This document shows positions 3,691 to 25,930 of a DNA stretch of 29,532 nucleotides, in pieces. Below the pieces are notes generated by a model. It saw only the letters and a program-made list of their open reading frames with translations. It was not told where the DNA came from and made no database searches. Each line of letters opens with the position of its first letter. Within the stretch, counting starts at the first letter, position 1. Source of the stretch: a virus. Location of the stretch: the IMG/VR virus record IMGVR_UViG_3300025769_000582, positions 1-29,532 of that record. One strand, 5' to 3'. Both the position numbers and the translations under genes were made by a program.

Positions 3691-4141
3691 GGTCAGTTAT
3701 TTTTACCGTTGCGATATTCCAGTACCACCAAAGGCATTAGAAATGGACTTAACAGATCGTCAAATGCTCTTGGTTCATCTTATATCTAGACTACATCGCT
3801 ATCATCCAGAAGATGACTGGTTTCTCTTGGAAAAGTCAGATGTCTTTCTAATGTTAAATAAGGGAAACATACTACGCTGGGGAGTATTCATGCAAACTTT
3901 TGATCCAATTTTAGAGATGGGTAATATGCCAAATGATAAAGTCTTATGCAGAATCAATCCACATATCTGGAAGCCAGGCCAAAAATTAAGATCTTATAAT
4001 TTGACTGATAGATTAACAATTTATATGTACCGTAAACTGAGAGGACTATTTCCATTAGGAAGAGTTGATGAAAGATTTAAAGGTTACGATATGACGTGTG
4101 ACCTGATAAAAATGTTAGACAAAGCTCAGAATGACGTGTAA
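3683..4141 (+). CDS. Unknown early/middle protein
   Basis: A 152-residue protein of no family I can name. It is rich in Leu, Arg and aromatic residues, without signal peptide or membrane segments; the segment DRQMLLVHLISRLHRYHPED looks like an amphipathic helix. It overlaps both neighbours (3683-3690 and 4131-4141), so it is co-translated with the small gene before it and the sigma-like gene after it. Its role is unknown. Confidence 0.55.
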   Translation: MNEVSYFYRCDIPVPPKALEMDLTDRQMLLVHLISRLHRYHPEDDWFLLEKSDVFLMLNKGNILRWGVFMQTFDPILEMGNMPNDKVLCRINPHIWKPGQKLRSYNLTDRLTIYMYRKLRGLFPLGRVDERFKGYDMTCDLIKMLDKAQNDV

Positions 4142-4703
4142 TGAATGGATCCAAAACAACTACACCAATATTTGTGAATGGTCAAAGAATATAACAAGAG
4201 GAGATCAGCTCTCTAAAGAGTTGGCTCACTATGCGATTTGGCAAATGTTAGAACATCCTAAGCGTGAAGCCTTGGCCATGAGAGAAAGAGACTTTCCAGA
4301 TACACTTAAGTATTTTATGTTAAGTATAATTCGTAATAGTTGGTATGGTAAAAAGTCACCTTTTAGTCTGGTTGAGAAACAGCATCGCACAGATATAGGT
4401 CAAGTAAAGAAGACGATTGACGAGAAATCATTTTGGGATAGCGTAGCCAATGCGAAACACGAAGAATATGATTACTATAAGGACGAGTTAATAGAAGCGA
4501 TCCAGGCTATCCTAAATGAAATGTCTAAATCTACCGATCGAGAATGGTATTTAGCAAAATTGTTTAAGATGTGGATAGAATTTCAAAACTTCAGTGAAAT
4601 GAGTCGTATAACAGGTATACCACGCACCTCGATCTCGAAAGCAGTGAAAGAGGGAAAAGAATACATATTACATGAACTCTATCTTCGCAATCTATTATCT
4701 TGA
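4131..4703 (+). CDS. Sigma-factor-like / ECF-type transcription regulator
   Basis: A 190-residue protein. Residues about 18-85 look like a diverged sigma region 2: 'NITRGDQLSKELAHYAIWQM' followed by YFMLSIIRNSWYGKKSPF, a pattern like the 'DELTQE...YL..I..N....' helices of sigma-70/ECF proteins. Residues about 150-175 (FSEMSRITGIPRTSISKAVK) form a helix-turn-helix like region 4. The linker is acidic. Sigma-like proteins of this size are common in Bacteroidota phages and may direct late transcription. Here it lies just upstream of the terminase genes and would be made before the structural blocks that start with TATATCTTA boxes. The sigma assignment is by motif reading and should be treated as likely rather than certain. 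Confidence 0.6.
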   Translation: MTCNEWIQNNYTNICEWSKNITRGDQLSKELAHYAIWQMLEHPKREALAMRERDFPDTLKYFMLSIIRNSWYGKKSPFSLVEKQHRTDIGQVKKTIDEKSFWDSVANAKHEEYDYYKDELIEAIQAILNEMSKSTDREWYLAKLFKMWIEFQNFSEMSRITGIPRTSISKAVKEGKEYILHELYLRNLLS

Positions 4704-6773: not shown

Positions 6774-7385
6774 TTAGTCCTCCACAACATAATACATTCT
6801 AGCAGTATTAAGTTCGTCAGTGAATCCAAACTCACGCATCCAAGACCGAAGCTTAGCAGTGCCTTTACGCATTTCTTTAAAAGATTCGGCCTCTTGAATG
6901 TAGCAAGGATAAGTAATAACTCTATCAGCAATACCAACTGCTTCACATGCATCCAAGAAGTAGTTCATCAATTTAGTACCATAGCCTTTGCCTTTTTTGC
7001 TGGCCTCTATAAAATCAAGATTTAGATAGCCATCAATAGTCCAGTAGAAATGAAGAGTACCGTAATCACATTGAAAGGCGGCCTTATAGTAGTCGCAATA
7101 AACATCTTCATACCAAGTCTTACCAGCATTATCAAAGGTATCATTGTAGTACATTTGCAATTTGCAAGCACCTGACCGAGGATCTACATTGTCTTTGTTG
7201 GCATAGTCAAACATTTCACTAATCACTAACACAAGCTCGTGTTCTTCGAGGTCTAACATATCATTGACTACTTTTTCATCAATGCTTTGGAATGGAACTT
7301 GAACTTGTGGCCTTTTAGCCATGCGAGCCATGTGAGCGAAACCTTCTTTCAGGTCTTTGTTAGAGATGTTCATAATAGTTTTCAT
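6774..7385 (-). CDS. GNAT-like acetyltransferase
   Basis: A 203-residue protein. The segment around 123-150 (LDFIEASKKGKGYGTKLMNY) carries K-G-K-G-Y-G-T at 131-137, the Q/R-x-x-G-x-G/A acetyl-CoA pyrophosphate loop of GNAT enzymes, at the expected strand-loop-helix position. The C-terminal 'FGFTDEL' echoes the G-F motif that ends many GNAT domains. The N-terminal 110 residues are not recognised. The substrate could be a host protein, an antibiotic-like molecule or a nucleotide; nothing indicates which. It is on the opposite strand to the flanking structural genes, has its own promoter box at 7408-7423 almost identical to that of the other minus-strand operon, and ends directly against terL. 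Probably an accessory (moron-like) gene. Confidence 0.65.
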   Translation of the reverse strand: MKTIMNISNKDLKEGFAHMARMAKRPQVQVPFQSIDEKVVNDMLDLEEHELVLVISEMFDYANKDNVDPRSGACKLQMYYNDTFDNAGKTWYEDVYCDYYKAAFQCDYGTLHFYWTIDGYLNLDFIEASKKGKGYGTKLMNYFLDACEAVGIADRVITYPCYIQEAESFKEMRKGTAKLRSWMREFGFTDELNTARMYYVVED

Positions 7386-7407: not shown

Positions 7408-7423
7408 TTACAGAGCTAATATA
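7408..7423 (-). promoter_or_regulatory. Minus-strand promoter box of the GNAT-like gene
   Basis: On the minus strand this reads TATATTAGCTCTGTAA, with the TATATTAG part a fair match to the Bacteroidota -7 box TAnnTTTG. The same sequence with one change lies upstream of the minus-strand AAA+ gene (20076-20091). The box ends 22 bases before the ATG at 7385. No clear -33 TTG is present at standard spacing. Confidence 0.6.
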
Positions 7424-7490
7424 CACAATTCTGGCCAACTAAAAAACTTTTGATGACTTTTTTTTGATAAAATTCAACTTGATACATAAG

Positions 7491-7500
7491 TATATCTTTA
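7491..7500 (+). promoter_or_regulatory. TATATCTT-type promoter of the tail operon
   Basis: TATATCTTTA ends four bases before the ATG at 7505. It is the first of five such boxes at the heads of structural blocks. If it is a -7 element, the mRNA would be leaderless or nearly so. Confidence 0.55.
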
Positions 7501-7504
7501 ATTG

Positions 7505-8167
7505 ATGATTAAGATCACTACTACATCAGGCCAATATGAGATTCCCAGTGAACCACTCTTGAGTCACTGGAATTGCTGCTTGAAGTGGGGCTTTGAGAAC
7601 CCTAAGTCATGGCCACTCATCTTACACGAAGTAACAGGTTGTCCATTGAATGAAATCAATCAGATTTCTGCTGATGTGATAGAAGTCCTGTTTGGCCACT
7701 TTATACAAAAGTTCAATGAAGTAGAAGAGATCAGACCAGACTTTTCTGGTTGGAACTTTGGCCAGTTTATTGACGCTGATGTAATGTTGAGCTTGGGAGT
7801 TGATAAATGGATGATGCAAATCTGGTATCTAATCTCAGGTAAAGATGACGCCAAATTTAGCGAAGCGTGGCCACAGATCTTAAAACTCTATGATTGGCGT
7901 AAAAGTGTCTATCAAGAATATGATGAATTCTTTGGCTTGAGTGAGATGGAGAAGGCCAAAGAACGTGGAGTTGAAATAGAAGAAAGAGAGTCCACATTGA
8001 GCTCACTACAAACAGCTTGGTATAGTGTGATCCAACAAATAACTGGTGAAGACCTAACCAAACAAGACTGGGTCACAGACCAACCTTACAAAAAGGTCTT
8101 AAACTGGTTGACTTGGAAAAAGTGGAGAGATGAGCAAATAGAATTAGAAATGATCCGTAAACGATGA
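7505..8167 (+). CDS. Probable tail assembly chaperone-like / tail-module protein
   Basis: A 220-residue protein starting at ATG 7505; a TTG three bases earlier is less likely. The C-terminal half (WYSVIQQITGEDLTKQDWVT, then a helix ending in charged residues) resembles the 'WY..L..LA..D....D.VT.L....ALN.L' pattern I associate with tail-assembly-chaperone-like proteins of Bacteroidota phages. The middle has F-G-Q-F-I-D-A-D, as in the same group. It is the first gene of a tightly overlapping tail operon, ATGA-coupled to the next gene. In most siphophages the chaperone sits directly before the tape measure; here four genes intervene, which lowers confidence. Confidence 0.4.
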   Translation: MIKITTTSGQYEIPSEPLLSHWNCCLKWGFENPKSWPLILHEVTGCPLNEINQISADVIEVLFGHFIQKFNEVEEIRPDFSGWNFGQFIDADVMLSLGVDKWMMQIWYLISGKDDAKFSEAWPQILKLYDWRKSVYQEYDEFFGLSEMEKAKERGVEIEERESTLSSLQTAWYSVIQQITGEDLTKQDWVTDQPYKKVLNWLTWKKWRDEQIELEMIRKR

Positions 8168-8601
8168 CATACGAAAAAGTAATACAAGACTTCTTTACCA
8201 TCTGTGAAAACCACAAGATGATTCAAACATGGGGCTATGGCCAATTGACAGACTTGGTAGATCCATACAACCAAGAAGGCCAAGATTATCCTTATGCTTT
8301 CTTAGTGCCACAAACTCATGTCTTATTAGAGCACTCAACTCAATACAATTTCCAATTGATTATGCAAGAGTTGGTGATGGGTGGTCAATCAGAAGTCATT
8401 AGGGCCCAATCTGATGCTCTGCTCTACATCAAAGATATCTTAGCACACTTTTATTACCACTTAGACGGGTATGACTTTACTCTTAACTTTCAGGTCACAC
8501 CGTTTCGAGAAAAATACGATGATAGCGTTGCAGGTATGACAGCTAGTATTCAATTAGTTGTTAGAGACCTGTTAGACGATTGCATAACACCTTATGAGTG
8601 A
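8164..8601 (+). CDS. Probable tail completion / tail terminator protein
   Basis: A 145-residue protein. Strands alternate with helices, as in the small tail-terminator/neck proteins (gpU- or gp17-like) of siphophages: an N-terminal helix, a central 'YPYAFLVPQTHVLLEHSTQY' strand pair, a helix with DALLYIKDILAHFY, and a final pair of strands. Similar sequences lie beside gp10-like neck genes in Bacteroidota phages. ATGA coupling before it and an eight-base overlap after it place it in the same operon. Called by architecture and context only. Confidence 0.5.
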   Translation: MTYEKVIQDFFTICENHKMIQTWGYGQLTDLVDPYNQEGQDYPYAFLVPQTHVLLEHSTQYNFQLIMQELVMGGQSEVIRAQSDALLYIKDILAHFYYHLDGYDFTLNFQVTPFREKYDDSVAGMTASIQLVVRDLLDDCITPYE

Positions 8602-9058
8602 TCTAAACGATATAATCAACGAGTTAAGCGATATTGGTGAGGACTTAACAGATGATATTAATGATATTGTCCGTCAGGTCTTACAACAAGAAGTCAATAT
8701 CTGGCGTCAAAGGGCCCCACGAGATACTGGTGCTTTGCAACAAAGTATTCAACTGAGACTCTTAGATCCTTACACATGGGGTATTGAGTTTTTGGACTAT
8801 GGTCTCTACCAAAACTTTGGAGTCCGAGGTACTGAGTCCGATCCTGGAGCTTTTAGTGCCAGTGGTAGTCAGACTTTCGGTACACCATATCAGTTTAAGA
8901 GTAAAACTATTGGAGGACCACTTCCTTTTGCTGTAAGACAATCAATTGCTCGTTACGGCCTCAAACCACAACCTTGGTTCTTACTACCTGGTGAAACAGT
9001 AGACCTGATCGCTGACCGAGTAGCAAGAGCCGTTGAACAAAGATTACAACTATTATAA
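8594..9058 (+). CDS. HK97 gp10-like head-tail/neck protein
   Basis: A 154-residue protein. The segment RAPRDTGALQQSIQLRL at about 39-55 is the hallmark 'RAPVDTGxLRxSI' of HK97 gp10-like tail-completion proteins. Aromatic YGLYQNFGVRG follows, like the usual 'YAxYQEFGT' motif. These proteins join the neck to the tail. The acidic N-terminal helix and the C-terminal helix fit the family length. Its TAA overlaps the next ATG by one base (TAATG). Confidence 0.7.
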   Translation: MSDLNDIINELSDIGEDLTDDINDIVRQVLQQEVNIWRQRAPRDTGALQQSIQLRLLDPYTWGIEFLDYGLYQNFGVRGTESDPGAFSASGSQTFGTPYQFKSKTIGGPLPFAVRQSIARYGLKPQPWFLLPGETVDLIADRVARAVEQRLQLL

Positions 9059-10446
9059 TGGCACTAGAACCCGTAATACAAATACAAGACGAACCAGAAA
9101 ACATTGAAATGGTCTATGGCTACAATGTTTGGACTCTAAGCGACTTAAATACGACCAATCCACGATATGTCTTACAAGTCTGGAATTGGAACGACTCAAC
9201 AGAATCAGCTGATGAACTCTTATTTGACTTGCGTCAACAGAGTAACCCGGCCGGTTTTGCACACTTTGATATTCAAAAGATCTTACAAAATCTAGTTGAG
9301 CATCAATATCGGTATGTGCCACCTTTTCAATTTGACGATACAACGGCCTCACCAGGTGAATTAAGACCTGACTTTACTTACAGCATAAAAGCTGGCTATG
9401 AAAACACAGCAGGTGTTCCAGTTATCCAACAAGAGTCAGGCCCTAAGGTAATCTACCCAGGTTACAAAAAGTATAATGAGGTCAACTTTGATATTTCACC
9501 ATTTAGACCAGTCTTTAATCCTACTAATGAATTTGGTCAAATCACATTGGTACAATCTGCCAGACCTTTTGCAGAATGGTGGGACGCTTATCCATCAGAC
9601 GCTTCTGGCACTTGGCCTTATAAAGTAGTTCCAGTTACTGAGGACCAACCAATTCAGATTCCGATTCTGACTAATATCGAGATTCAATATGACCCTGATA
9701 GTATTTTTGTTACAGAGTATCCTTTCTTCAATTACACTTTCTACGATGAGTCTGGAGCAACTCTACTCGCAGGTACAGTAGATGCTTCTACGGTTATTCC
9801 ATGTGACCCTGTACAATTCCCAGAGTACTACGAGGCCGGCAAAACGATTATCTTCTTTGGCTTTAATATTCGCACAGTCTTAAATACCTTTCCAACTTGT
9901 ACAAGAATAGACATCGACACTAGATCTACTTACTATCACACCGGCCTTTTAAGTTGTTTGCCATCAGCTGGTGATAGAGATGTTTATGGAGCTTACAGAT
10001 TTGAAATTGGTGCTAATGAGTGTAACGACTATGCTGAGACCTATTTGACTTGGCAAAACAAGTGGGGTTTCCAAGAGTACTTTCCATTTCAAAAGGAAAA
10101 GACCCGATCACTCTCTTATGAAAGACAAGAATACTACCAAGACGGTGCAACATGGAGCAACTCCAGCTTTGACCACCTGATTGGTGAACCGGGTCGCCGA
10201 GTCTTTGCACAAACCAGAGAAGAAGAGTGGACTCTACGTACTCGTTGGTTAACAGGTAACGAAGTTGTCTTAATGGAGTCCTTATTAAACAGTGGTTGGG
10301 TGGCCGTTTGGAATGGTGATAGAGACTTTACACCTGCTACTATTCAAACTAACAGGTATATTGAACGTAATGAAAGACGCCAAAAGATGTATCAGTTTGA
10401 AATAACTATCAAGTTGGCCAATAATCAACAACTACAAAGAGGATGA
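9058..10446 (+). CDS. Large tail/baseplate structural protein
   Basis: A 462-residue, aromatic-rich, mostly beta protein without membrane segments. I do not recognise a named domain. It is reminiscent of structural proteins in Bacteroidota siphophages that precede the tail-tip protein: an N-terminal conserved-looking block (VYGYNVWTLSDLN...) and a C-terminal 'RTRWLTGNEVVLMESLLNSG' block. It is coupled to both neighbours by overlaps (TAATG and ATGA). Position between neck genes and the next large tail protein suggests a distal tail or baseplate component. The exact role is unknown. Confidence 0.55.
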   Translation: MALEPVIQIQDEPENIEMVYGYNVWTLSDLNTTNPRYVLQVWNWNDSTESADELLFDLRQQSNPAGFAHFDIQKILQNLVEHQYRYVPPFQFDDTTASPGELRPDFTYSIKAGYENTAGVPVIQQESGPKVIYPGYKKYNEVNFDISPFRPVFNPTNEFGQITLVQSARPFAEWWDAYPSDASGTWPYKVVPVTEDQPIQIPILTNIEIQYDPDSIFVTEYPFFNYTFYDESGATLLAGTVDASTVIPCDPVQFPEYYEAGKTIIFFGFNIRTVLNTFPTCTRIDIDTRSTYYHTGLLSCLPSAGDRDVYGAYRFEIGANECNDYAETYLTWQNKWGFQEYFPFQKEKTRSLSYERQEYYQDGATWSNSSFDHLIGEPGRRVFAQTREEEWTLRTRWLTGNEVVLMESLLNSGWVAVWNGDRDFTPATIQTNRYIERNERRQKMYQFEITIKLANNQQLQRG

Positions 10447-12692
10447 TACAGTTAATAGTAGAAGGCAACTTCTTAGACCTATATGACAGGACTCCACCTA
10501 AGTTGACCTTTCAAATAGAAGACATTACGGATACTTCTGCTACTAGTATTTTTAGTAGACAGTTTAGACTACCAGCTACTCAAAGAAACTTTCAATTCTT
10601 TAAGACGGCCTTCTTAGTCAATGGCCAAGACTTTGATGTTACACAAAAGTATAACGCTTCGATCTTAGTCGACGGTGTAGAGTTTCGCAGAGGTCAATTT
10701 AGATTAAACAAAGTCTATGTTAATGAAGTACAATCTATTGTTGACTATGAGGCCATCTTTTTAGGTGAGAGTAAAAGCTTTGCCAGTCAGTTAGGTGAAG
10801 GCTTCTTAAACGAAATAGACTTAACAGAGTATAATCACGTACCAACTATGGAATTAATAGTTGATAGTTGGCAAGCTTATCCTGAAGGTGGCCTTACTGA
10901 CGGCCTGTTTGAAGGTGATATCTTGTATCCACTTATTGACTTTGGTAATACTTATGCTGATGAAGGTAACCCACCAGTCTTAACGCCACAAGAGACTAGA
11001 ATCTCAGCAGTTGATGCGTCAGACCACTTAAACTTTACTAAAAAGCAACATCCAGTAGACTCATCACGCTTTAAGCCGATGGTCAGAATGAAAGTCATCT
11101 TTGACAAATGTTTTGCTGAGACCGATTACACTTACACTAGCCAATTTATGGAGAGTGAAAGAGTAAGACACATGTATATTTCTGCTTGGGGTAATGTGCC
11201 TAGTCCTTATGCTGATAATTCAAATAGTAACTTAATTAGCTCTAGCACTATTGGGGCCCAGTTTTCAGCAGAAGATGAATTTGTAGTCCCTTTTCAGGCC
11301 AACTTAGATCCAGCAGGTAACTTTGATAATACCACATCAACTTACTTGGTTCCAATTACTGGTACATATGACTTGGTCTTAAATATCTCAGGCCAAGCTA
11401 TCGGTGATGCACCTGCTGGTGGTGAAATTGAAGTCGGCTTCTATAAAAATGGTGTTGCTTTGCAGACCAATACTTTTGTTGCTGGTGCTGGTTCACTTAT
11501 TCCATGGGACGCTTATATTGAATTAGACAATGAGCCTTTAGTAGCTGGTGATGAGATCACAGTACAAGTCCGAATCACTGCAGGCCAGATTCAAAGCTAT
11601 ATTGTTGAAAACGGAGCCAGTTGGGACATACCACAAGCACCTGGTGAGTTAAACGTGGCCTTGATGTTGAATGATAAGTACAAAAAGATTGATTTTATCA
11701 AAGACACTCTTACCAGGTTTAGATTGGTGATGCAACCAGATCCTAATAATCAATCACAGTTCATTATTGAGCCTTGGCAAAACTGGATCGGTACAGGCCA
11801 AATCTATGATTGGACCAAAAAGGTTGATTTGAGTCGTGATATTCAAATCTCACCGCTTTTTTATACTCAAGCTGAAGCTATTCAGTTTTCAGACCAAGCT
11901 GGTACAGACTTTTTAAGTGATCTTAATCTGGATGAGTTTGACGAGGTCTTTGGAACCCTTTTAGTTGATAGTAACAATGAATTGTTAACAGGTTTACGAG
12001 AAATCAAACTCATCGGTCAAGCGTCTACACCTATCACACAAATCGAAGGTTCTACTGATACTTATGGTCCTAGTTTTATCATTCCACAAATCCATGTGCA
12101 TGAAACTGGTAACAGCTTAGATTATCCATTACAACACATACCAATTAAGGCCAAGACTAGACTCTTATTCTATAATGGCTTAAAATCTACTGGTGGTGTT
12201 GAATGGTGGGACACTATTACTGCACCTCTTAATACTCCACGCACTGAGTATCCAATGGTGAGTTACTATGAGTTTTGGCCTACTTTAAGTGGTGGATTAA
12301 ATCTCAATTGGCAAAGAGAAACAGGTTACATTAGATACTATTCTAATGAAGACCGTTTAAGAGGCCGAAGCCAATACGAAGTCTATTGGGGTGAGTATAT
12401 TGACAGCTTATATGACCGCTTTGCGCGTAGAGTGACGCTCTATGTCAAACTTTCTAATCTAGATCTGCAAGACTTCTCATTTGATGATGTGGTCTTTATC
12501 CGAGACACATACTATTATGTTGAAAAGATCTATGATGCACCAGTAGGCCAAGATGAATTGGTTAAAGTTGACTTGATTAAGTTGAGTAGAATAGTAGAGA
12601 TCAAGAACCAGGTTCCACCACCACCTGAATTCTTCTGGAATACTATTAACGAAAACTTTAACGAGGTCGAAGAAGACTGGAACGAAAAGTAA
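10443..12692 (+). CDS. Tail-tip / baseplate protein with an inserted jelly-roll-like domain
   Basis: A 749-residue protein. The N-terminal 120 residues (including SRQFRLPATQRNFQFFKTAF, then a strand-rich segment with VDGVEFRRGQFRL) match a family I know from Bacteroidota phage and prophage tails, where the 'S+xF.LP.T..N..LF' signature recurs. Residues about 270-396 look like an inserted C1q/jelly-roll-like module: STYLVPITGTYDLVLNISG, a GFYKNG turn, then DEITVQVRI. Such modules bind glycans or stabilise trimers. It is the last gene before a new promoter box at 12712, and is probably part of the tail tip contacting the host. Overall structural role is likely; details are inferred. Confidence 0.6.
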   Translation: MIQLIVEGNFLDLYDRTPPKLTFQIEDITDTSATSIFSRQFRLPATQRNFQFFKTAFLVNGQDFDVTQKYNASILVDGVEFRRGQFRLNKVYVNEVQSIVDYEAIFLGESKSFASQLGEGFLNEIDLTEYNHVPTMELIVDSWQAYPEGGLTDGLFEGDILYPLIDFGNTYADEGNPPVLTPQETRISAVDASDHLNFTKKQHPVDSSRFKPMVRMKVIFDKCFAETDYTYTSQFMESERVRHMYISAWGNVPSPYADNSNSNLISSSTIGAQFSAEDEFVVPFQANLDPAGNFDNTTSTYLVPITGTYDLVLNISGQAIGDAPAGGEIEVGFYKNGVALQTNTFVAGAGSLIPWDAYIELDNEPLVAGDEITVQVRITAGQIQSYIVENGASWDIPQAPGELNVALMLNDKYKKIDFIKDTLTRFRLVMQPDPNNQSQFIIEPWQNWIGTGQIYDWTKKVDLSRDIQISPLFYTQAEAIQFSDQAGTDFLSDLNLDEFDEVFGTLLVDSNNELLTGLREIKLIGQASTPITQIEGSTDTYGPSFIIPQIHVHETGNSLDYPLQHIPIKAKTRLLFYNGLKSTGGVEWWDTITAPLNTPRTEYPMVSYYEFWPTLSGGLNLNWQRETGYIRYYSNEDRLRGRSQYEVYWGEYIDSLYDRFARRVTLYVKLSNLDLQDFSFDDVVFIRDTYYYVEKIYDAPVGQDELVKVDLIKLSRIVEIKNQVPPPPEFFWNTINENFNEVEEDWNEK

Positions 12693-12711
12693 ATTCAATT
12701 TACTCTTAGAG

Positions 12712-12722
12712 TATATCTTATA
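12712..12722 (+). promoter_or_regulatory. TATATCTTATA promoter box before the tape measure
   Basis: The box ends five bases before ATG 12728, in the only gap (35 bases) between the tail operon and the tape-measure gene. A start site a few bases past a -7 element would make a leaderless mRNA. Confidence 0.55.
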
Positions 12723-12727
12723 CTGAT

Positions 12728-14845
12728 ATGGCTAATGCTAACATAAAAATCGAGATTGATGGTGTACAATACGCCGTTAAAGAGATTGAATCTCTAAAAA
12801 AGGCCACTGAAGGCGCTGCTCAAGCAACTGAAGAGTTGGCCGATGCGCAAAAAGAGAGTGCCGATGCTGCCAAGGAACAGGAAGAAGAGACAGGATTTTT
12901 ACAAGATCGTTACAATGGTCTAAAAGATACTGTTAGTAAATTGAGAGCTGACTTTAAGTTGGCCACTAAAGGTATCTCAACCTTTTTTACTACTGGTACC
13001 AAAGGCGCTAAGGCCTTAAAGATTGCTTTTGCTTCAACTGGTATTGGTTTACTGGTAGTGGCTATTGCTAGCTTGATTGACTACTTTAAGGACACTGAAG
13101 AAGGTTCTAGGGTGCTCACAGTCGCATTCGAATCAGTTGGAGTGATAGTCAATAAGTTGATTGATTTCTTTGCGGAGATACCAGCTAAAATTAAGTCAGT
13201 CTTTGAAGATCCAGTAGAATCGATCAAAGGTTTTGCTACAACTATTCAAACTTTTGTTGCTGATAAGATCTCACAACTACTTGAAGGTTTTGGTCTACTT
13301 GGTGAGGCCTTATCAGATCTTTTTAGTGGTGAGTTTAGTAGCGCTGCAGATAAGGCCAAAGAAGGTTTCTTAAAGATTGGTGACTCTGCATTGGCTTTGA
13401 ACCCTGCTACTGCTGTACTGTATCAGCTGGGTGATGTGATAATCAATGATGTGGTCCCTGCAGTAACAGAAGCTGTAACAGCTGTGAATGACTTGGTCTT
13501 GGCAGAACGTGGTCTTAGAGATCTTAACCAAGAATTAATTGTTAGCAATGCACAGTTAACAAAACAGTTAGAGACCGAGCAAAAGATTGCCGAAGATACC
13601 ACACTTACATATCAAGAGCGTAAAGATGCGTTGGATCAGGTCAATGAAGCTCAAATCCAACTTGCAGAAAACGCTGCTAAGCAAGCACAAGCTGAAGAAG
13701 ACCTAATACGTCAACAATTGGCCTTGGCAGACAGCTATGAAGAGCAAGAGGAGTTGCAAACAGCATTGGCAGAAGCAGTAGCTAACAGAATCTCTAGAGA
13801 AACAGAATTAGAGACCAAGAAGTTAGAGGCTGGTAAGCTTTCACGTGAACTTGAACAAGAAGAACTCGACCGTCAACAAACTATTAACGATACTATTCAA
13901 CAATTACGATTAGAGAATATTGAAGACGAAAGAGAGGCCGCAAGAGAATCTCTACGTATAGCAGAAGAGACAGCTATTAAAGAATTAGAGAGACTTAAAG
14001 CTACTGATGAAGAGATTCAGGCCTTAAGAGACCAGTTTGCTGAATCACGCCGTCAACAAGAGAAAGAATTTGCTGATGAAGACGCAGAACTCTTACAAGA
14101 AAAGCTGGAAAGAGAAGAACAGGCTGCAGAATTCTTACGTCAGCAAAGCTTGACAGCCCAACAGGCTGAAATCGATATCTTGCGCCAAAAGTATGATGAG
14201 CAAATAGAACTGGCTGGTGAAAACAGTGATTTGGCCCAGCAGTTGATTGAGCAACGTGAGCAGGCCATTGCAGAGATTGAAGACAAATATCGTAAAGAGA
14301 AAGTCAAGAAAGATCGCACAGCTCAACAAGAAGCTATCAACTCTGGAATTGAATTGGCCGCCAAAGGTATTCAAGCTATTATAGCTTTGAATCAGGCCGC
14401 AGCTGGTGATAGTGAAGCAGAGCAGAAGAAGGCCTTTGAACGCAATAAAAAGTTGCAGATTGCATTGGCAACTATTCAAACTGCGCAAGCTGTTACAGCA
14501 GCCTTGACCGCTGGTGGTAACCCAATTAAGTTGGCTACTGGTGCTCAATTTGTTGAAGCTGCAATTGTTGCTGCACAAGGTCTGGCACAAATAGTCTCAA
14601 TAAAGAACACTGAGTTTGGTGGAGGTGGCAGTGTAACTACTCCAACTCAACCACCAGCCTTTAATGGTCAAGCTGCGTTAGATACATTTAATCAAGGTAT
14701 CGTTCAAAACCAAGATCCCGGTGAAGCAATAACACCTGGTCAAACTGGCCAACAATCAGAACCAATTAGAGCCTATGTGATAGCAACAGAAGTTACTTCA
14801 CAACAAGAGGCCAATCAAGAAATAGAAAACCTTGCACGATTATGA
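12728..14845 (+). CDS. Tail tape measure protein
   Basis: A 705-residue protein. The N-terminus is helical and charged. A hydrophobic segment (about 96-118, IAFASTGIGLLVVAIASLID) matches the membrane-inserting stretch typical of tape measures. Residues about 250-540 are a long Glu/Gln/Lys/Ala coiled coil, and another hydrophobic helical region lies at about 580-620. At roughly 0.15 nm per residue the tail would be near 100 nm long, which is small for a siphovirus. The gene has its own promoter box and is ATGA-coupled to the protease gene, an unusual order because head genes follow rather than precede it. Confidence 0.82.
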   Translation: MANANIKIEIDGVQYAVKEIESLKKATEGAAQATEELADAQKESADAAKEQEEETGFLQDRYNGLKDTVSKLRADFKLATKGISTFFTTGTKGAKALKIAFASTGIGLLVVAIASLIDYFKDTEEGSRVLTVAFESVGVIVNKLIDFFAEIPAKIKSVFEDPVESIKGFATTIQTFVADKISQLLEGFGLLGEALSDLFSGEFSSAADKAKEGFLKIGDSALALNPATAVLYQLGDVIINDVVPAVTEAVTAVNDLVLAERGLRDLNQELIVSNAQLTKQLETEQKIAEDTTLTYQERKDALDQVNEAQIQLAENAAKQAQAEEDLIRQQLALADSYEEQEELQTALAEAVANRISRETELETKKLEAGKLSRELEQEELDRQQTINDTIQQLRLENIEDEREAARESLRIAEETAIKELERLKATDEEIQALRDQFAESRRQQEKEFADEDAELLQEKLEREEQAAEFLRQQSLTAQQAEIDILRQKYDEQIELAGENSDLAQQLIEQREQAIAEIEDKYRKEKVKKDRTAQQEAINSGIELAAKGIQAIIALNQAAAGDSEAEQKKAFERNKKLQIALATIQTAQAVTAALTAGGNPIKLATGAQFVEAAIVAAQGLAQIVSIKNTEFGGGGSVTTPTQPPAFNGQAALDTFNQGIVQNQDPGEAITPGQTGQQSEPIRAYVIATEVTSQQEANQEIENLARL

Positions 14846-16410
14846 ATAGAGAAATAAAAAAGATTGCCGAACTCAAGATTGATATTGAAGACATTGAATT
14901 AGATGGCTTTGGTATTGATGTAGTCAGTTTTGTCAATGACCCAGCTATTGAAGTTGGTTTTTTACACTTTAATAAAGAAACTTTTGTTGTACCATCTGCT
15001 GGTGAAACTGAAGAAGAGTTTATTGGTCGTTGTATGTCTTCTCTCGATACAGAGTTTCCAGATGAAGATCAAAGGTTGGCCGTTTGTTACAGCTACTGGG
15101 AAAGCGATAAGCTTGAAGATGAAGAAGATAAAATACTTTTTGAAAGTTACACAGACTATCCAGAAGCAGTCAAGAGTAACGCAGAAAGAGGTATAAGATT
15201 AAATGAGGAGGTTGATAACAAATGTGCTACACAAGTCGGTAAGGTTAGAGCACAACAATTGGCCAAAGGTGAACCTATCAGTTTTGAAACTGTCAAAAGA
15301 ATGTACAGTTACCTTTCACGTGCTAAAGAATACTATAAGCCAAGTGATACTGAAGCTTGTGGTACTATTAGTTACTTACTTTGGGGTGGTGAAGAGGCAC
15401 TAAGATGGTCTGAACGTAAGATCAGACAGGTTGAAGAAATGGTAATCTTACAATGGGCCGAAGAGCATGGTGAAGAACAGAATAATGATTATATGGAAGT
15501 CGATATTAGTGATAAGTTTTCGACTGTTCAAGATATTGCGAAAGCTGTTGCTGGTCTTGATATACTGGGTAAGCTGGGTATTAGAAAAGACCAGGAAGGA
15601 GTAACCAAGTATAAGTATACTGGTCCACCAGCAGAACGTGGTTTTTGTAAAGCCTTAATGAGACTCAATAAACTCTATAGCTCAGAAGATATGGAGAAGT
15701 TGAAGAGAAAGTTGAGTATTGTGAATCCTGGCATGGGACCTGGTGGCAGAAACAGTTACGATGTATTTGCTTATAAAGGCGGAGTTAATTGCCGCCACTA
15801 TTGGTCTAAGAACCTCTTGTTTAAAGCTCCAGGTAGTAACAGAGTCTTGATGTTAAATCAAGGTCCAGCCGAAGGTGATGCTGGTAAATCAAATAACAGG
15901 AACGAGCCTTCACCAACTGGAGCTGTTGGTAACAATGCTAGCTTAAAGTTCTCTATGATTGATGGTGATAAGAGGATTGTTGCAGGCCCTATGATGATTC
16001 CTAATAAGTTTATTATTAGAAAGGACCAAAATGGTGATCCTTACTATGTCTATTTTACAAAAGAGACCATACGTAAACTACAAGAAAAGTGGAGTCGTGA
16101 ACATAAGTGGAATCAAACTGATGTTAACCACGACGGTAATGTAACAGACACAAATGTTCTATTAGAACAATGGATTATTGAAACACCAGCAAATGATAAG
16201 AGCCGTGAATACTATGGTTTTTATGATTTACCAAAAGGCACATGGTTTGGTGCTTATAAGGTCAATGATGACCAGACCTGGGAAGACATTAAGTCAGGTA
16301 AACTGACAGGTTTCTCGATTGAAGGTAACTTTGTTGAGAAATCAAAGGAGAATGAGGACGTAGGAAAACTAAAACAAATCATAGATATCCTGAAAAATGT
16401 CAACGAATAA
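14842..16410 (+). CDS. XkdF-like prohead protease (S78-type)
   Basis: A 522-residue protein. The C-terminal third, from IVAGPMMIPNKFIIRKDQNG through YVYFTKETI to GFSIEGNF, follows the XkdF-like (Peptidase_S78_2) pattern. S492 in GFSIEG and H430 in DVNHDG are candidate catalytic residues. The N-terminal block IDVVSFVNDPAIEVGF and the F-I-G-R-C-M / QRLAVCYSYWE segments are typical of phage capsid-maturation proteins, and a middle block (CATQVGKVRAQQLAKGEPIS...WGG) occurs with them. The enzyme would cleave scaffold and capsid during head maturation. It lies between the tape measure and the scaffold-like gene. Its stop overlaps the start of the small membrane-protein gene. Confidence 0.75.
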   Translation: MNREIKKIAELKIDIEDIELDGFGIDVVSFVNDPAIEVGFLHFNKETFVVPSAGETEEEFIGRCMSSLDTEFPDEDQRLAVCYSYWESDKLEDEEDKILFESYTDYPEAVKSNAERGIRLNEEVDNKCATQVGKVRAQQLAKGEPISFETVKRMYSYLSRAKEYYKPSDTEACGTISYLLWGGEEALRWSERKIRQVEEMVILQWAEEHGEEQNNDYMEVDISDKFSTVQDIAKAVAGLDILGKLGIRKDQEGVTKYKYTGPPAERGFCKALMRLNKLYSSEDMEKLKRKLSIVNPGMGPGGRNSYDVFAYKGGVNCRHYWSKNLLFKAPGSNRVLMLNQGPAEGDAGKSNNRNEPSPTGAVGNNASLKFSMIDGDKRIVAGPMMIPNKFIIRKDQNGDPYYVYFTKETIRKLQEKWSREHKWNQTDVNHDGNVTDTNVLLEQWIIETPANDKSREYYGFYDLPKGTWFGAYKVNDDQTWEDIKSGKLTGFSIEGNFVEKSKENEDVGKLKQIIDILKNVNE

Positions 16411-16573
16411 TGAAGACATTGTAGCAACTACTTTTTCTTTAGGTGCTATAACTGCTTACTTAATGGAGATAGAAATTATATTAACTGTAGCTGTTTTAGC
16501 TAGTGCTCTAACCCTGAATGTATACCGTATTGTTAAAACTTGGAAAGGCGATAAAGATGCTGATAACAAATAA
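16397..16573 (+). CDS. 58-residue small membrane protein
   Basis: ATG 16397 opens a 58-codon frame ending TAA 16571-16573, overlapping the protease gene's last 14 bases. It encodes a hydrophilic N-terminus, one or two hydrophobic stretches (about 9-24 and 26-43) and a basic C-terminus (WKGDKDADNK). Such short membrane proteins are often holin or spanin-like, but nothing proves that here. It lies just before the promoter box at 16597, so it is the last gene of the tape-measure transcript. Confidence 0.5.
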   Translation: MSTNNEDIVATTFSLGAITAYLMEIEIILTVAVLASALTLNVYRIVKTWKGDKDADNK

Positions 16574-16596
16574 TTTTTGTCACTTTTCAAATTTTT

Positions 16597-16607
16597 TATA
16601 TCTTATA
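16597..16607 (+). promoter_or_regulatory. TATATCTTATA promoter of the scaffold/capsid operon
   Basis: The best-formed of the five boxes: a TTG (16577-16579) lies 19 bases upstream of TATCTTA (16599-16605), matching the Bacteroidota -33/-7 spacing. The scaffold ATG is at 16650, so this unit has a leader of about 40 bases. Confidence 0.6.
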
Positions 16608-16612
16608 ACGCA

Positions 16613-16631
16613 AGACCGTAAATCGTGGTCT
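16613..16631 (+). promoter_or_regulatory. 5' leader hairpin of the capsid mRNA
   Basis: AGACC (16613-16617) pairs with GGTCT (16627-16631), with two G-T wobble pairs inside, and is followed by seven A. It lies a few bases after the expected start site, where a stem could protect the mRNA end or affect translation. Confidence 0.35.
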
Positions 16632-16649
16632 AAAAAAATCAAAATCATC

Positions 16650-17198
16650 ATGAAAGCATCAGAAGCTATTGAAAAGATTCGAGTCCTGCTTGGCGTTGAA
16701 GACGCAGTAGAAGAGACTCAAATTCAGTTAGCAACTGCTACTTTAATTGATGGCACCGTAGTCGAAGTAGAAGGCGAGCTTGAAGTTGGCAAACCTCTTT
16801 TCGTACAGACTGAAGAAGGACCTATTCCTGCTCCAGCTGGCAAGCATCAAACAACTAATGATCTCTTGATCACTGTTGATGAAGCAGGTGTTATCACTGA
16901 AATCGTAGAAGTTGAAGCTGAAGAACCAGAAGTAGAAGTCGAGATTGAAATGGAAGCAGAGGAAGAGGTCAAAGTAGAGATGGAAGAGGAGAAGGTCAAA
17001 ATTGAAATGGCCGAAAAGTTGATCCAATTGCTCGAGCCTTACTTGAAGCAAATCGACGAAATGAAAGAGAAGATGGCCGCACAAGACGAGGTTATCGCAA
17101 AGCTCTCAAAAGAACCAGCCGCTAAACCAATTAAGCGCAATGACATTACCAACGACCGCATCAGTGCAGTTGACCGCTTGGTAAAATTCAGAAAATAA
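16650..17198 (+). CDS. Scaffold-like protein
   Basis: A 182-residue acidic protein starting at ATG 16650 (MKASEAIEKI...); an upstream in-frame ATG at 16518 would overlap the promoter and the small membrane-protein gene and is rejected. The centre (about 87-128) is almost all Glu, Val, Ala and Met, and the C-terminal 50 residues form a helix ending in basic residues, the usual layout of phage scaffolds whose C-terminus binds capsid subunits. The position between protease and major capsid supports this. It could alternatively be a small head decoration precursor. Confidence 0.65.
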   Translation: MKASEAIEKIRVLLGVEDAVEETQIQLATATLIDGTVVEVEGELEVGKPLFVQTEEGPIPAPAGKHQTTNDLLITVDEAGVITEIVEVEAEEPEVEVEIEMEAEEEVKVEMEEEKVKIEMAEKLIQLLEPYLKQIDEMKEKMAAQDEVIAKLSKEPAAKPIKRNDITNDRISAVDRLVKFRK

Positions 17199-17215
17199 AA
17201 TAAACACCAAAAATT

Positions 17216-18115
17216 ATGAGTTACGTATTAACTGACCTACAGGCATATACTGACGAGATGAGCTTTGAGTTGATCTCTAAGGCAGTATTGACCACCAATT
17301 TGATGAACTACGTTACTATCCGTAGCGGTCTTCGCGCAGGTAACGTTGCAATTAACTTACTAGACGCAGACATTTCTGTACAAGACAGAGCTTGCGGATG
17401 GGACAACAATGGTACAATGACCTTTTCACAAGTTGTTATTGACATCGCTGAAAAGCAGTCAAAGCAGGAATTGTGCCCAACAGACCTTCGCGACTACTAC
17501 TTGAGTGAGCGTTTGTCTCCATCAGCTTACGCTGAAGAAGTACCTTTCCCAGAAGTTGTTTCTAATCTTTTTGTCCAAAAGATCCGCAACTGGAACGAGA
17601 ACTACTTGGCTAACCAATTGTTTGACACTGCAGCTGCTGCATTGGCAACTGCTGGTACTTGCCCTAACCAAGTTGCAACTACTGCAGCGGTTGACGTAAA
17701 CAACGTTGTAAGCATTGTTCTTGAGTTGTTCGACGCTATCGATGAGTCTGTAAAGGACAGAGACGATTTGGTTGTCTTGATGAACCCTGCAAACTTCGCA
17801 TTATTGCGTAGAGCACTTGTTGCACAAAACTACTTCCACTACAACCAAGGTCAAGGTACTGAGGACGAATTGATCATCCCAGGTACTAACATGAAGGCTG
17901 TAAGAGTTACCTTAAACGCTCTTGATACTGAGTACGCTTCTATGATCGCTGGTCCAGCCAGAGACATGGTTGTTGGTACTGGTCTTGAGGACGACATGGA
18001 TTCTTTGCGTATCTTCTACGATCAGTCAAACGACGTAGTAAAGGTAATGGCAGCTTGGAGAATCGGGGTCAACTTTGTTGACGTTTGTAAGTTCTCTTAC
18101 TACACACCTGCATAA
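17216..18115 (+). CDS. Major capsid protein (HK97-fold, probable)
   Basis: A 299-residue protein, the right size for a compact HK97-fold shell subunit. Helix-rich N-terminus, then strands; the C-terminal 120 residues contain the P-domain-like block DLVVLMNPANFALLRRAL and the A-domain-like end. It follows the scaffold-like gene, carries no GGCC sites (unlike most neighbours), and its codon choice (GAC, AAC, TTC) looks tuned for high expression. The family is common in Bacteroidota phages. Between it and the next gene is a weak hairpin, GCTC-TTGA-GAGC at 18131-18142. Confidence 0.8.
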   Translation: MSYVLTDLQAYTDEMSFELISKAVLTTNLMNYVTIRSGLRAGNVAINLLDADISVQDRACGWDNNGTMTFSQVVIDIAEKQSKQELCPTDLRDYYLSERLSPSAYAEEVPFPEVVSNLFVQKIRNWNENYLANQLFDTAAAALATAGTCPNQVATTAAVDVNNVVSIVLELFDAIDESVKDRDDLVVLMNPANFALLRRALVAQNYFHYNQGQGTEDELIIPGTNMKAVRVTLNALDTEYASMIAGPARDMVVGTGLEDDMDSLRIFYDQSNDVVKVMAAWRIGVNFVDVCKFSYYTPA

Positions 18116-18163
18116 TCAATACCCTTAACCGCTCTTGAGAGCATAAAAATAATCCAATAAACT

Positions 18164-18685
18164 ATGGCTTGTAATATCACAGAAGGATTTACGGTGTCCT
18201 GTAAGGATTCTCAAGGGGGTATTGAGTACTTGTACATGGCAGACTTGCCATCAGGTGCTGTACCTGTAACTGATGTCGATGGAATCTTAACTGGTTTCAA
18301 TGACGCTGCAGGTGCTCCTTTGACAATCACTTTCTACAAGTTTGAAGTCCCTAAGCAGACTTCTGGCTTGACACAAACAATCAATGCAGACAACGCAGCA
18401 GGAACTGTATTCTATCAGCAAGACATCACTATGGTCTTTAATAAGATTACAGCTGATGTCAGAAATCAGATCTTGTTGTTGGCTCAAAACCCACGTATCG
18501 TTGCAGTTGTAAAAGACGGTAATGGAATCTTCCAAACTGTTGGAGCTACTCGTGGTGCTGAAGTAACTGCTGGAACTATCACTACTGGTATCGCTTATGC
18601 GGACCGTAATGGCGGTGAATTGACCGTAACTGGTCTTGAGCCAGATCCAGCTTACATCACTGACGCTGCACTTGTTGGTGAATAA
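18164..18685 (+). CDS. Probable major tail tube protein
   Basis: A 173-residue, low-charge, beta-rich protein. It begins CNITEGFTVSCKDSQGGIEY, a pattern shared by tail-tube-like proteins of Bacteroidota phages, and has the strand-rich core with TDVRNQILLLAQNPR-like helix expected of a tube fold. It is the last gene of the capsid operon, closed by the terminator at 18710-18739. Like the major capsid gene it carries no GGCC, consistent with an abundant virion protein. A small decoration protein is the alternative. Confidence 0.65.
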   Translation: MACNITEGFTVSCKDSQGGIEYLYMADLPSGAVPVTDVDGILTGFNDAAGAPLTITFYKFEVPKQTSGLTQTINADNAAGTVFYQQDITMVFNKITADVRNQILLLAQNPRIVAVVKDGNGIFQTVGATRGAEVTAGTITTGIAYADRNGGELTVTGLEPDPAYITDAALVGE

Positions 18686-18709
18686 GTAAATCTTACACAA
18701 ACTAAAAGA

Positions 18710-18739
18710 AGAGGGACCTTATAGTCCCTCTTTTTTTTT
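18710..18739 (+). terminator. Terminator of the capsid operon, shared with the end of the minus-strand gene
   Basis: AGAGGGAC (18710-18717) pairs with GTCCCTCT (18724-18731) around a six-base loop, followed by nine T. The minus-strand gene's stop codon (18719-18721) lies in the loop, so its last codons (KKKEGL) are written by the stem and the A/T run. Confidence 0.85.
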
Positions 18740-19198
18740 GAATTTAGAAACATCTACATTACTTCCACTAGTTCCTTTATATGTTTGTATTGTAAAAAAA
18801 CTATCTTTTAACATACATAACCAAGATTCAGGATATCCAAATTCTTTTAATTTATTTCTCATTTCAGTTCTTGTAAATTCTTTAGGCAATGAATTTAGAA
18901 CTTCCATTTTTTTATTGTGTTGACATTTGTTACCATGCCATTTTGCATAATTAGCTGTGGTAACAGGCCTGCTACAAACTTCACATTTTATTAGTTTATG
19001 AGCATTTCTAATGTTTTTATCTCCATTCGATTCAATAAGTTTATAAATATGCCCAGTTTCTTTATTGGCACTACCTCCTTTACTATTACGTTCAAACGCA
19101 ATAAATTCTTTTTGAGTCATTTGGCCAATCTTAGTTGCCTTAAACTCTTTAATTTCTTGTTCGGCCTTTTTAAGCCAGTCTGGTTTATTGTTTTCCAT
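18719..19198 (-). CDS. Zinc-finger-like protein paired with the AAA+ ATPase
   Basis: A 159-residue basic protein. Residues 72-94 hold C72-x2-C75, then H88, C92 and H94 (CEVCSRPVTTANYAKWHGNK, C, Q, H), a plausible zinc site like the small CxxC...WH..C modules in phage DNA-binding or HNH-associated proteins; the N-terminal 60 residues are charged and helical. I see no full HNH catalytic motif. It starts inside the stop of the AAA+ gene (shared base 19198), so the two are translated together from the promoter at 20076-20091. Probably DNA- or RNA-binding; partner of the ATPase by inference. Confidence 0.5.
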   Translation of the reverse strand: MENNKPDWLKKAEQEIKEFKATKIGQMTQKEFIAFERNSKGGSANKETGHIYKLIESNGDKNIRNAHKLIKCEVCSRPVTTANYAKWHGNKCQHNKKMEVLNSLPKEFTRTEMRNKLKEFGYPESWLCMLKDSFFTIQTYKGTSGSNVDVSKFKKKEGL

Positions 19199-20058
19199 TA
19201 GTACTTCAAGTAATCAAGTTCCCAATTATCTTTATAATCTTCTGGCTCATCAATAATCTCAAAGCCCATCTTTTGAATTGTACGAACGCTAGTTTCTTTC
19301 ATATTATTCCAGTTTTGCCATACCCAATCTAAAAGATAGATTTTGTCTTCTTCATTATCAAGCATATAAAGAGCGTTGTCATTTATGCCAGCGTCATACA
19401 ACCAACCCCACTTTTCTGATTTATTTAGTTCGATATCAAGCGGATTCATTCGACTACGGATGGCCAATAAGTGTTGAGCTCGTTGCTTTTTAGCACCTGT
19501 CATATCCTTAATACTAATTTCATCTGGCAAAATAATATTAGATGTAATCATAAAAACGAATTCATCACACGGAATTGTTAATTTACCTTCATCTTCATTA
19601 TAATAAAGTGGAAGAAGATCTTTAACACTTTCTGTAAAGTTACCAGCTGAAATCTTTTTAGAATATTCAAAAGTACGTTCTTCAATTTTAGTGTTGGTCA
19701 TATGTTTAAGCATATTAACATTTTTAGCTTCAAACATAAAATCACAATCATCAAGAACTATAACCATTCTTTGACCTTTTGGTTTGTTATGATGAAGCAA
19801 AATCAATTGACCCATAAGACCAAAAAGAGAGGTATTACCTGTTAATTCAATAAAAGGTACATTATAATTACTCAATTGTCTTTTTACATGTTCAGACTTA
19901 CCAACTCCAGGTGCTCCTGAAATCAATGTGTCAAGGTAGACCTTACGATCAAGGTTTGTTGCTCGTTTAGCTCCTCGTTTAGCTTCTTTAACAAGCCGTT
20001 CACGCCGAGCTTGGCCAGCTTGAATAGCCTCGCGTTGTTCTGTTGAGAGTTTAATCAT
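19198..20058 (-). CDS. AAA+ ATPase
   Basis: A 286-residue protein. Walker A GAPGVGKS is at 48-55, Walker B MVIVLDDCDF at 98-107 and sensor-1-like FVFMITSNI near 184-192. The N-terminal 40 residues are basic and helical. The C-terminal third is acidic. The overall layout resembles the AAA family ATPases of marine phages whose function is unknown; clamp loaders and RarA-like proteins are the nearest well-known relatives. It heads the two-gene minus-strand cassette inside the structural region, with its own promoter. Roles in DNA repair, replication or counter-defence are all possible. The ATPase call is sure; the function is not. Confidence 0.8.
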   Translation of the reverse strand: MIKLSTEQREAIQAGQARRERLVKEAKRGAKRATNLDRKVYLDTLISGAPGVGKSEHVKRQLSNYNVPFIELTGNTSLFGLMGQLILLHHNKPKGQRMVIVLDDCDFMFEAKNVNMLKHMTNTKIEERTFEYSKKISAGNFTESVKDLLPLYYNEDEGKLTIPCDEFVFMITSNIILPDEISIKDMTGAKKQRAQHLLAIRSRMNPLDIELNKSEKWGWLYDAGINDNALYMLDNEEDKIYLLDWVWQNWNNMKETSVRTIQKMGFEIIDEPEDYKDNWELDYLKY

Positions 20059-20075
20059 TTTTGTGTTGTTTTTAA

Positions 20076-20091
20076 TTACATAGCTAATATA
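20076..20091 (-). promoter_or_regulatory. Minus-strand promoter box of the AAA+/zinc-finger operon
   Basis: Minus-strand TATATTAGCTATGTAA, one base different from the box at 7408-7423. It ends 17 bases before the ATG at 20058. It lies back to back with the plus-strand box at 20161. Confidence 0.6.
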
Positions 20092-20160: not shown

Positions 20161-20171
20161 TATATCTTATA
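20161..20171 (+). promoter_or_regulatory. TATATCTTATA promoter of the portal operon
   Basis: Identical over 11 bases to the boxes at 12712 and 16597. The first ATG is at 20193, giving a short leader of roughly 20 bases. Confidence 0.55.
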
Positions 20172-22301: not shown

Positions 22302-22404
22302 GAAGACAGACAAGAATATCAAACTCTTGAAACTCTTTTTTGAGAGGGAGAGACAAAAAAAGGCTGAAAAGAGTGAGACAGTTTTAGCCAAAATTATATC
22401 TTAA
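22288..22404 (+). CDS. 38-residue basic small protein
   Basis: ATG 22288 opens a 38-codon frame to TAA 22402-22404, overlapping the connector's last 14 bases. The peptide is Lys/Glu-rich and helical (ERERQKKAEKSE). The frame ends inside the TATATCTTA box of the fibre operon. It may be a real small gene or chance coding; there is no family evidence. Confidence 0.3.
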   Translation: MKSTKKTDKNIKLLKLFFERERQKKAEKSETVLAKIIS

Positions 22405-23528: not shown

Positions 23529-25913
23529 ATGAGCGATTCTCTATTTAATAAGAAGATATGTAATACGTATCCAGGCATGATTAAGACGTGTGATAACACG
23601 CAATTAACTCCTATTGAAAAACCTTTATCTGACGGTGTTGGTAACCTTTTACCAATGTCAGCTGGTACTTGTAGTATTAGTTATGGTGGTATTCAAGATT
23701 TTACTAACGCAACTGTAGTTGGATTTGGTGCTGTAGGTCCTACTGGCCCAACTGGTCCGGTTGGTGCTACTGGTCCTGAAGGTCCTGCTGGTCCTGCTGG
23801 TGGAGCTACTGGAGCTACAGGTGCAACAGGCCCGCAAGGTGCACAAGGTACTGCTGGTTTAAACGGTGTTGCTGGTCCAACTGGCGCTACTGGTGCTACT
23901 GGAGCTCAAGGCTTACAAGGTGCTACTGGAGCTCAAGGTCTTCAAGGTCTACAAGGAGCAACAGGTCCACAGGGATTACAAGGTGCTACCGGACTAACTG
24001 GAGCCACTGGTACACAAGGAGCAACCGGAGCCACAGGAGCTCAGGGTAATACTGGAGCAACCGGTGCACAAGGACTACAAGGTTTACAAGGTGCTACTGG
24101 AGCTCAAGGAGATGATGGAGCTACAGGTGCACAAGGTCCGCAAGGCTTTCAAGGTCTACAAGGAGCAACGGGAGCTCAAGGTCTTCAAGGCTTACAAGGA
24201 GCTACTGGAGCGCAAGGCTTACAAGGCGCAACTGGCGCTACCGGTGCTGATTCTACTGTTCCTGGACCTACTGGTCCTACTGGTTTAACAGGACCGCAAG
24301 GATTTCAAGGTCTACAAGGAGCAACTGGTTTACAAGGTGCTACTGGAGCAACTGGTGCTGATTCAACAGTACCTGGTCCTACTGGACCTACAGGTGCTAC
24401 TGGAGCACAAGGATTTCAAGGTTTACAAGGAGCAACAGGAGCAACAGGTCCACAAGGCTTTCAAGGCTTACAAGGTGCTACTGGAGCCCAAGGAGATGAT
24501 GGAGCAACAGGTCCACAAGGCTTTCAAGGCTTACAAGGTGCTACTGGAGCTACTGGTGCTGATTCAACAGTGCCTGGTCCGACAGGTCCGCAAGGCTTAC
24601 AAGGAGCTACCGGTGCAACTGGTTTACAAGGTGCTACTGGAGCTAGCGGCGCTGATTCAACAGTACCTGGCCCTACTGGTCCACAAGGATTTCAGGGTCT
24701 ACAAGGAGCAACGGGAGCAACGGGTCCTCAGGGTCAAATCGGAGCCACTGGAGCAACCGGACCTGTAGGACCACAAGGTAATGATGGTGTTGCTGGCTTA
24801 GTTGTAGGTTCAATTCCTGGTAACTCTATGAGATCAGCAGATCATTTAACTAATGTAAATAGTATTGCTTTATGTACACATAGTATTGCTTTAGGAAGTG
24901 GCGCTGCTGCATGTGGAACTAGCTCAATTGCAATAGGTACTTCAGCAATATCATATATGTATGAAGGTATTACAATTGGTACAAAGGCTGAAGCACACTG
25001 TTGCTGCAGCATTGCTATTGGATCTAATGCTTGTAGTTTTGGACTAGATCAAATAACTATAGGTTGTTGTAATCTTAATTATGGTAATACCACAGTTTTG
25101 ATTGGTGATAGTAACTGGTCTTGTGTTTCAACTGGTGTAATCATTGGTTCAAATAACCAACTTTGTAATCCTGCAACATGCAATAATGTAGTAATAGGCC
25201 GAGATAATTGCCAAGGTGGTAATCTTGGTGTAATGATCGGTGATTGTAACACTAATTGTTTTAGTTATGGCGTTAATATAGGTTCTTGTGCTAATAGTAA
25301 TGGTGGAAGCGGAGTATCAATTGGTAGAAATACAATTTCAGGTAGTGATTCAGTTGCTATAGGATGTGGATCAAATTCAAATGCAATAGCATCTGGCAAT
25401 GTTGCTATAGGTGAAAGTGCATGTATTATTGCAGGTGTTGATAATATTGCAATCGGCCATAGTGTTAAAGTATGTGGAGTTAATGGAAGCAATCAAAATA
25501 TAGTTTTAGGATACTTAAGCTGCAGTGACGGTGATAGCTCTATTTCTATTGGTGATGTTACACGAGCAATGTGGGATCACAGTATTGCTATTGGTCGATT
25601 AGCTTCAACTTGTTGTATCGACTCTGTTTCTATTGGATGTAGTGCTCTTGCTTGCAGAAGCAGTGTAGCTATTGGAAAAGGTGCTAGTTCAACTGGTACT
25701 TGTAGTATCGCGATTGGACATAATTCATCTGCAACTACATTTAGTTATGCAATCGGTAGAGATATAGTAGCTAGCAGAGTCAATGTATTAACTACTTGTG
25801 AATTACAAACTTGCGGAAATGGTCGAGGCCTGATAGTTCGCACGCCAGACGGCACACAAGATTACAGAATCGCTGTAGACAACAGTGGTAACTTAACAAT
25901 AACAGCTGTATAA
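23529..25913 (+). CDS. Collagen-like / YadA-like tail fibre 1
   Basis: A 794-residue fibre. Residues 1-66 are a likely virion-anchoring head with [13 protein letters not shown], shared with the next gene. Residues 67-424 are a Gly-X-Y collagen-like region of about 118 triplets rich in GAT, GPQ, GLQ and GFQ; four GADSTVPGP interruptions break the phase. From about 437 to 745 runs a left-handed-roll head of YadA type (repeats of SIAIG/VAIG with 13-19 spacing), then a C-terminal module (LTTCELQTC...TPDG...VDNSGN). It would form a trimeric fibre for host recognition. The YadA part has 26 cysteines in about 355 residues, which is unusual. Confidence 0.8.
23727..24797. repeat. DNA-level short repeats encoding the collagen-like region
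   Basis: Nearly repeating GGT-GCT-ACT-GGA and CAA-GGC-TTA-CAA-GGT blocks, with longer units containing GADSTVPGP at four places. Synonymous codons vary between units, so the repeats are older than a recent expansion, yet they remain able to recombine in length. Confidence 0.75.
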
Positions 25914-25930
25914 ATAAAAAAACAAAACTC

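Follow-up and report, generated by a model that had tools for sequence, protein, structure and literature searches.

The closest described counterpart of the element analyzed here is the sigma-A promoter of Bacteroidota. In F. johnsoniae, its -7 element has the consensus TAHHTTTG, the -33 element is weak, and the gap to the transcription start is 4-5 nt (PMC6847099). In F. psychrophilum, variants of TAnnTTTG predominate, and the median 5' UTR measures 24 nt (PMC9723704). Described parallels for the genes concerned are phage morons and free-standing homing-endonuclease insertions, and for the late promoters around them, phage-encoded ECF-like sigma factors.

The window, by which we mean the whole 29,532-nucleotide stretch of viral DNA under analysis, contains two minus-strand transcription units, each preceded by a 16-bp box that resembles the Bacteroidota promoter. 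Its -7-like element, TATATTAG, agrees with TAHHTTTG at five of the six invariant positions (T-12, A-11, T-8, T-7, and G-5). The start would be expected 4-5 nt downstream, followed by a short A-rich leader without a Shine-Dalgarno sequence, and a weak -33 element is allowed in both cases. The box differs at -6, where it has A and the consensus has T, and in a conservation that runs on into GCTNTGTAA. A reading as an E. coli sigma-70 promoter found no support, with consensus matches in the region at shuffle level (36 versus 33.9). Based on these features and the comparisons described below, the boxes are likely (probability about 0.8) to be host sigma-A-type (Bacteroidota) promoters on swappable antisense cargo cassettes between conserved late genes, and the host of the phage is, on indirect grounds, probably a member of the Bacteroidota.

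The two boxes in the window

An earlier note on this DNA had described the boxes as matching at 15 of 16 positions, 22 and 17 nt from the respective minus-strand ATGs. Coordinates, sequences, orientation, match, and distances all proved exact on re-examination (Table 1). Read on the coding strand, the box is TATATTAGCT(C/A)TGTAA. As for the count of only two minus-strand units, no further convincing gene on that strand was seen in the window, the remaining minus-strand ORFs of at least 60 aa lying mostly antisense to plus-strand ORFs. Both units use one class of box, distinct from the plus-strand TATATCTTA class.

Table 1. Positions of the boxes, cargo genes, late-class promoters, and associated features in the window
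Feature	Position	Strand	Description
ECF-like sigma factor gene	4131..4703	+	Candidate reader of the plus-strand promoter class
GNAT-like cargo gene, site 1	6774..7385	-	Antisense between terminase and next late gene; L352 homologue at same place
Box 1	7408..7423	-	TATATTAGCTCTGTAA on coding strand (TTACAGAGCTAATATA on plus strand); -7-like element plus predicted start region GTAA; putative promoter of GNAT-like gene
T-run TTTTTT	7441..7446	-	Spans about -35 to -30; taken as a weak -33-like element for box 1
Late-class promoter TATATCTTT	7491..7499	+	Predicted, for gene after site 1; aligned in L187
Late-class promoter TATATCTTA	12712..12720	+	Predicted from sequence; before tape-measure-like gene
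Hairpin, T-runs on both sides	18704..18737	.	Probable shared terminator of late genes (+) and AAA/Zn cassette (-)
CxxC...WHxxxC zinc-finger cargo gene	18719..19198	-	1-nt overlap with AAA gene
AAA+ ATPase-like cargo gene, site 2	19198..20058	-	At the cut-off of Pfam AAA (21.2 bits); PHROG match phrog_1250 (E=6.7e-16)
Box 2	20076..20091	-	TATATTAGCTATGTAA on coding strand (TTACATAGCTAATATA on plus strand); putative promoter of AAA/Zn cassette; poor -33
Late-class promoter AAGTATATCTTATAGTAG	20161..20169	+	Predicted, after site 2; conserved in L004-L007
Late-class promoter TATATCTTA	22395..22403	+	Predicted from sequence

No third copy of the box was found in the window when the variable base was allowed (two exact copies). 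The next-best match has three mismatches, a level at which (three or fewer mismatches) about 1.0 match is expected by chance. A 50-bp promoter model, which was seeded with the box and is hence circular in its core, assigns 29.7 and 24.6 bits to the two box sites and 1.2 bits to the third-best place in the window. The flank upstream of box 1 scores in the top 0.1% of intergenic positions of the window, and that of box 2 shows little match to the -33 element.

The ends of the window (13-162 and 29383-29532) form a 150-bp direct overlap with 98.7% identity, which suggests that the genome is circular or circularly permuted and varies between strains. The record therefore looks close to a complete genome of about 29.4 kb, and two box copies are probably the genome-wide count.

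Distribution of the box in other phages and in bacteria

The box had been proposed to be private to the two minus-strand units. A search for the 16-mer in the window and other records contradicts this restriction: the window holds two copies, yet 48 occur in 24 whole records picked for holding the box or for being relatives (against none of a reversed-pattern control), and the exact sequence is present in at least 118 stretches among viral contigs. The same 16-mer thus stands a short way before genes of many unrelated phages, and before some Bacteroidota genes as well, and the copies across unrelated phages rule out a regulon private to the window phage. Terminase homology to the window was detected in 1 of 21 of these records, and weakly, so the sharing of the box does not reflect descent of the window phage.

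The proposal that the box acts as a promoter fared better, as in other phages it has a fixed orientation to genes and mostly lies shortly before them. Among the matches listed (the first 80 loci), 69 distinct sites were obtained, of which 44 are intergenic; a downstream ORF on the same strand starts 1-36 nt away for 35 of the 42 intergenic copies that have one. No reversed gene start lies within 36 nt of the box among these listed matches, and the nearest oppositely oriented start is 79 nt away. Multi-copy records among the 24 carry the box on one strand in all but one case. In sampled bacterial genomes, the box lies no more than 50 nt upstream of an ORF for 15 of 51 Bacteroidota copies and for 3 of 68 copies in other genomes (P=2e-4, Fisher test). 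A few of the matches listed fall in phages that look like those of Firmicutes and have TTGACA as well as Shine-Dalgarno sequences. Searching annotated phages with the promoter letters returned weak matches only (E of about 1 or more), and motif discovery by EM among the relatives found by terminase ended on an A-rich motif.

A model of upstream regions recovered TTT(T/G)G at about -33 in the flanks of box phages, an element absent from the search pattern. The -33 TTTG element is accordingly part of the box-phage consensus; it is represented by the T-run at box 1 and is poor at box 2. With the exact box left out, TTAG and canonical TTTG forms both occur upstream of genes in the box phages (32 versus 23 sites). 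As judged from its placement, the box is a copy of a promoter core common to many unrelated phages, and the 16-bp signature would provide a searchable mark of promoters at gene starts in uncultured phages, probably those of Bacteroidota.

Cargo sites and the late promoters around them

The "GNAT-like" label of the cargo at site 1 refers to a Pfam match under the cut-off (16.2 versus 20.7 bits), and its structure model is poorly folded (pLDDT 43). Peptide patterns retrieved the protein from viral contigs of the same genotype only. A homologue, truncated by the end of its contig (54% over 76 aa), stands at site 1 of a relative, L352, behind the variant box TATATTAGCCATGTAT at about 246-261. A second relative, L187, is syntenic with the window (terminase 51%, tape measure 69% identical), and its divergent region can be aligned with that of the window, including the plus-strand GTATATCTTA. 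At site 1, in the same orientation and with the same promoter region, L187 carries three different antisense genes behind TATATTAGCTATGTAA, with a second box-like promoter before the second of them. Site 1 thus shows cargo genes swapped behind a fixed antisense promoter. L187 also has a box variant, TATATTAGCCTTGTAT, at 7976-7991.

At site 2, which follows the capsid-accessory gene, the AAA protein matches a PHROG of unknown function; no relatives of it were found in viral contigs by peptide patterns. In a single comparison (25% over 59 aa, E=3e-4), the zinc-finger protein showed a weak likeness to the C-terminal end of the L019 cargo at site 2. PADLOC returned no match for the cargo. The site is empty in four close relatives (L004-L007), where an equivalent hairpin leads directly to the late promoter. 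Other relatives carry antisense genes at this place, encoding HNH (L015), GIY-YIG (L011, L012, and L028), or other proteins (L019 and L042), suggesting that site 2 is a homing-endonuclease-type insertion point. As judged by these comparisons, the minus-strand genes form interchangeable cargo cassettes, placed antisense among the late genes at two sites of variable content.

The plus-strand late genes have predicted promoters of their own. Of the four intergenic TATATCTT promoters, three (7491, 12712, and 22395) lie about 5-8 nt from the ATG, so near that their transcripts would have almost no leader. Another TATATCTTATA occurs within the ORF at 16518-17198, in its N-terminal part, which suggests that the true start of this ORF is the later ATG of MKASEAIEK. 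Downstream, 23529-27973 encodes two long low-complexity proteins, and its DNA is strongly repetitive internally; the first protein contains collagen-like GATGAQG repeats.

The plus-strand class may be read by the ECF-like sigma factor encoded in the window. Like phage-encoded ECF-like sigma factors (phrog_1740, a family present in 6 of 16 relatives), its product is modeled with a two-domain sigma-like fold (pLDDT 89); the top Foldseek matches to the model are mostly ECF sigmas, none of them below E=0.001. This parallel would bear on the plus-strand class rather than on the box, its specificity being inferred. Relatives with a sigma at least 44% identical (L187 and L019) have TATATCTT promoters, eight including those of the window, and no TATATTT(A/G); those with a sigma of 37% identity or less have TATATTT(A/G) only, where either form was found. 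The close sigma subfamily showed no further diversity, and an alignment of the sigma proteins proved too diverse for use in scanning. The pattern is suggestive of co-evolution between sigma subfamily and late promoter sequence, confounded by shared ancestry, and the pairing of sigma family with promoter change is directly testable. A two-sigma logic can be proposed tentatively, as a reading less likely than not: the ECF-like sigma would read the late sense genes, its -10 preference co-evolving with the promoters (TATATCTT with one subfamily, TATATTT(A/G) with others), and the antisense cassettes, still under promoters for host sigma-A, would be expressed against the late genes on a schedule of their own.

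Reading of the box and parallels with known systems

In the favored model, the box forms the core of a regular sigma-A promoter of the Bacteroidota type, with the -7-like element followed by the start-site region. Host RNA polymerase would read it, with RNA beginning around the GTAA of the box and predicted leaders of about 26 nt (box 1) and 21 nt (box 2). The box would drive the GNAT-like cassette at site 1 and the AAA/zinc-finger cassette at site 2, presumably independently of the late sense program. Among relatives, the promoter and flanks of site 1 are kept as its cargo changes, and site 2 is empty or filled with other antisense genes.

It is unlikely that the box marks a promoter class specific to phages (TTAGCTNTGTAA), with a reader different from host sigma-A, and thereby a genuine regulon under common control, for instance of early genes. 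The conservation into GCTNTGTAA, past the sigma-A element, would fit such a class, as would a search of nine box phages with the pattern TATATTWGCNNNGTAW, which found the TTAG form alone (32 to 0). A distinct sigma factor or activator is possible because the box has A at -6 and this pattern found only the A form. However, TTAG and TTTG occur at similar promoters of one and the same phage (for example, L168), and copies of the box stand at the starts of genes on Bacteroidota chromosomes, as well as in phages that lack the terminase of the window.

It is very improbable that the box serves as an operator, bound by a regulator of phage or host origin, and not as a promoter core: a GGTTAACC-like palindrome is present in the spacers preceding the boxes at site 1 of L187 and L352 and could be taken as a regulatory site, but the box itself is shaped as a -7 element plus start region, in fixed orientation to genes. 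A chance match between the two divergent regions is scarcely credible. The two are rich in AT, and promoters can be expected to contain TATATT; because dinucleotide-preserving shuffles of both regions gave a shared 16-mer matching at 15 of 16 positions in 8 of 3000 trials, the pair is unlikely to be due to chance, not astronomically so. Chance is nevertheless opposed by the presence of the box at gene starts in many phages, and conservation at site 1 in L187 and L352 rules it out for box 1.

The cassettes resemble phage morons and free-standing homing-endonuclease insertions. They depart from both in being antisense to the late genes and in that site 1 lacks its own terminator, the GNAT-like gene abutting the 3' end of the terminase gene. 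The likeness lies in extra genes with a promoter of their own, here a putative one at both sites, inserted between conserved genes that are adjacent in relatives; in cargo that is absent (site 2 of L004-L007) or replaced (site 1 of L187) in relatives; in a probable terminator, the hairpin with T-runs on both strands, that flanks site 2 only; and in the HNH and GIY-YIG genes that occupy site 2 of relatives.
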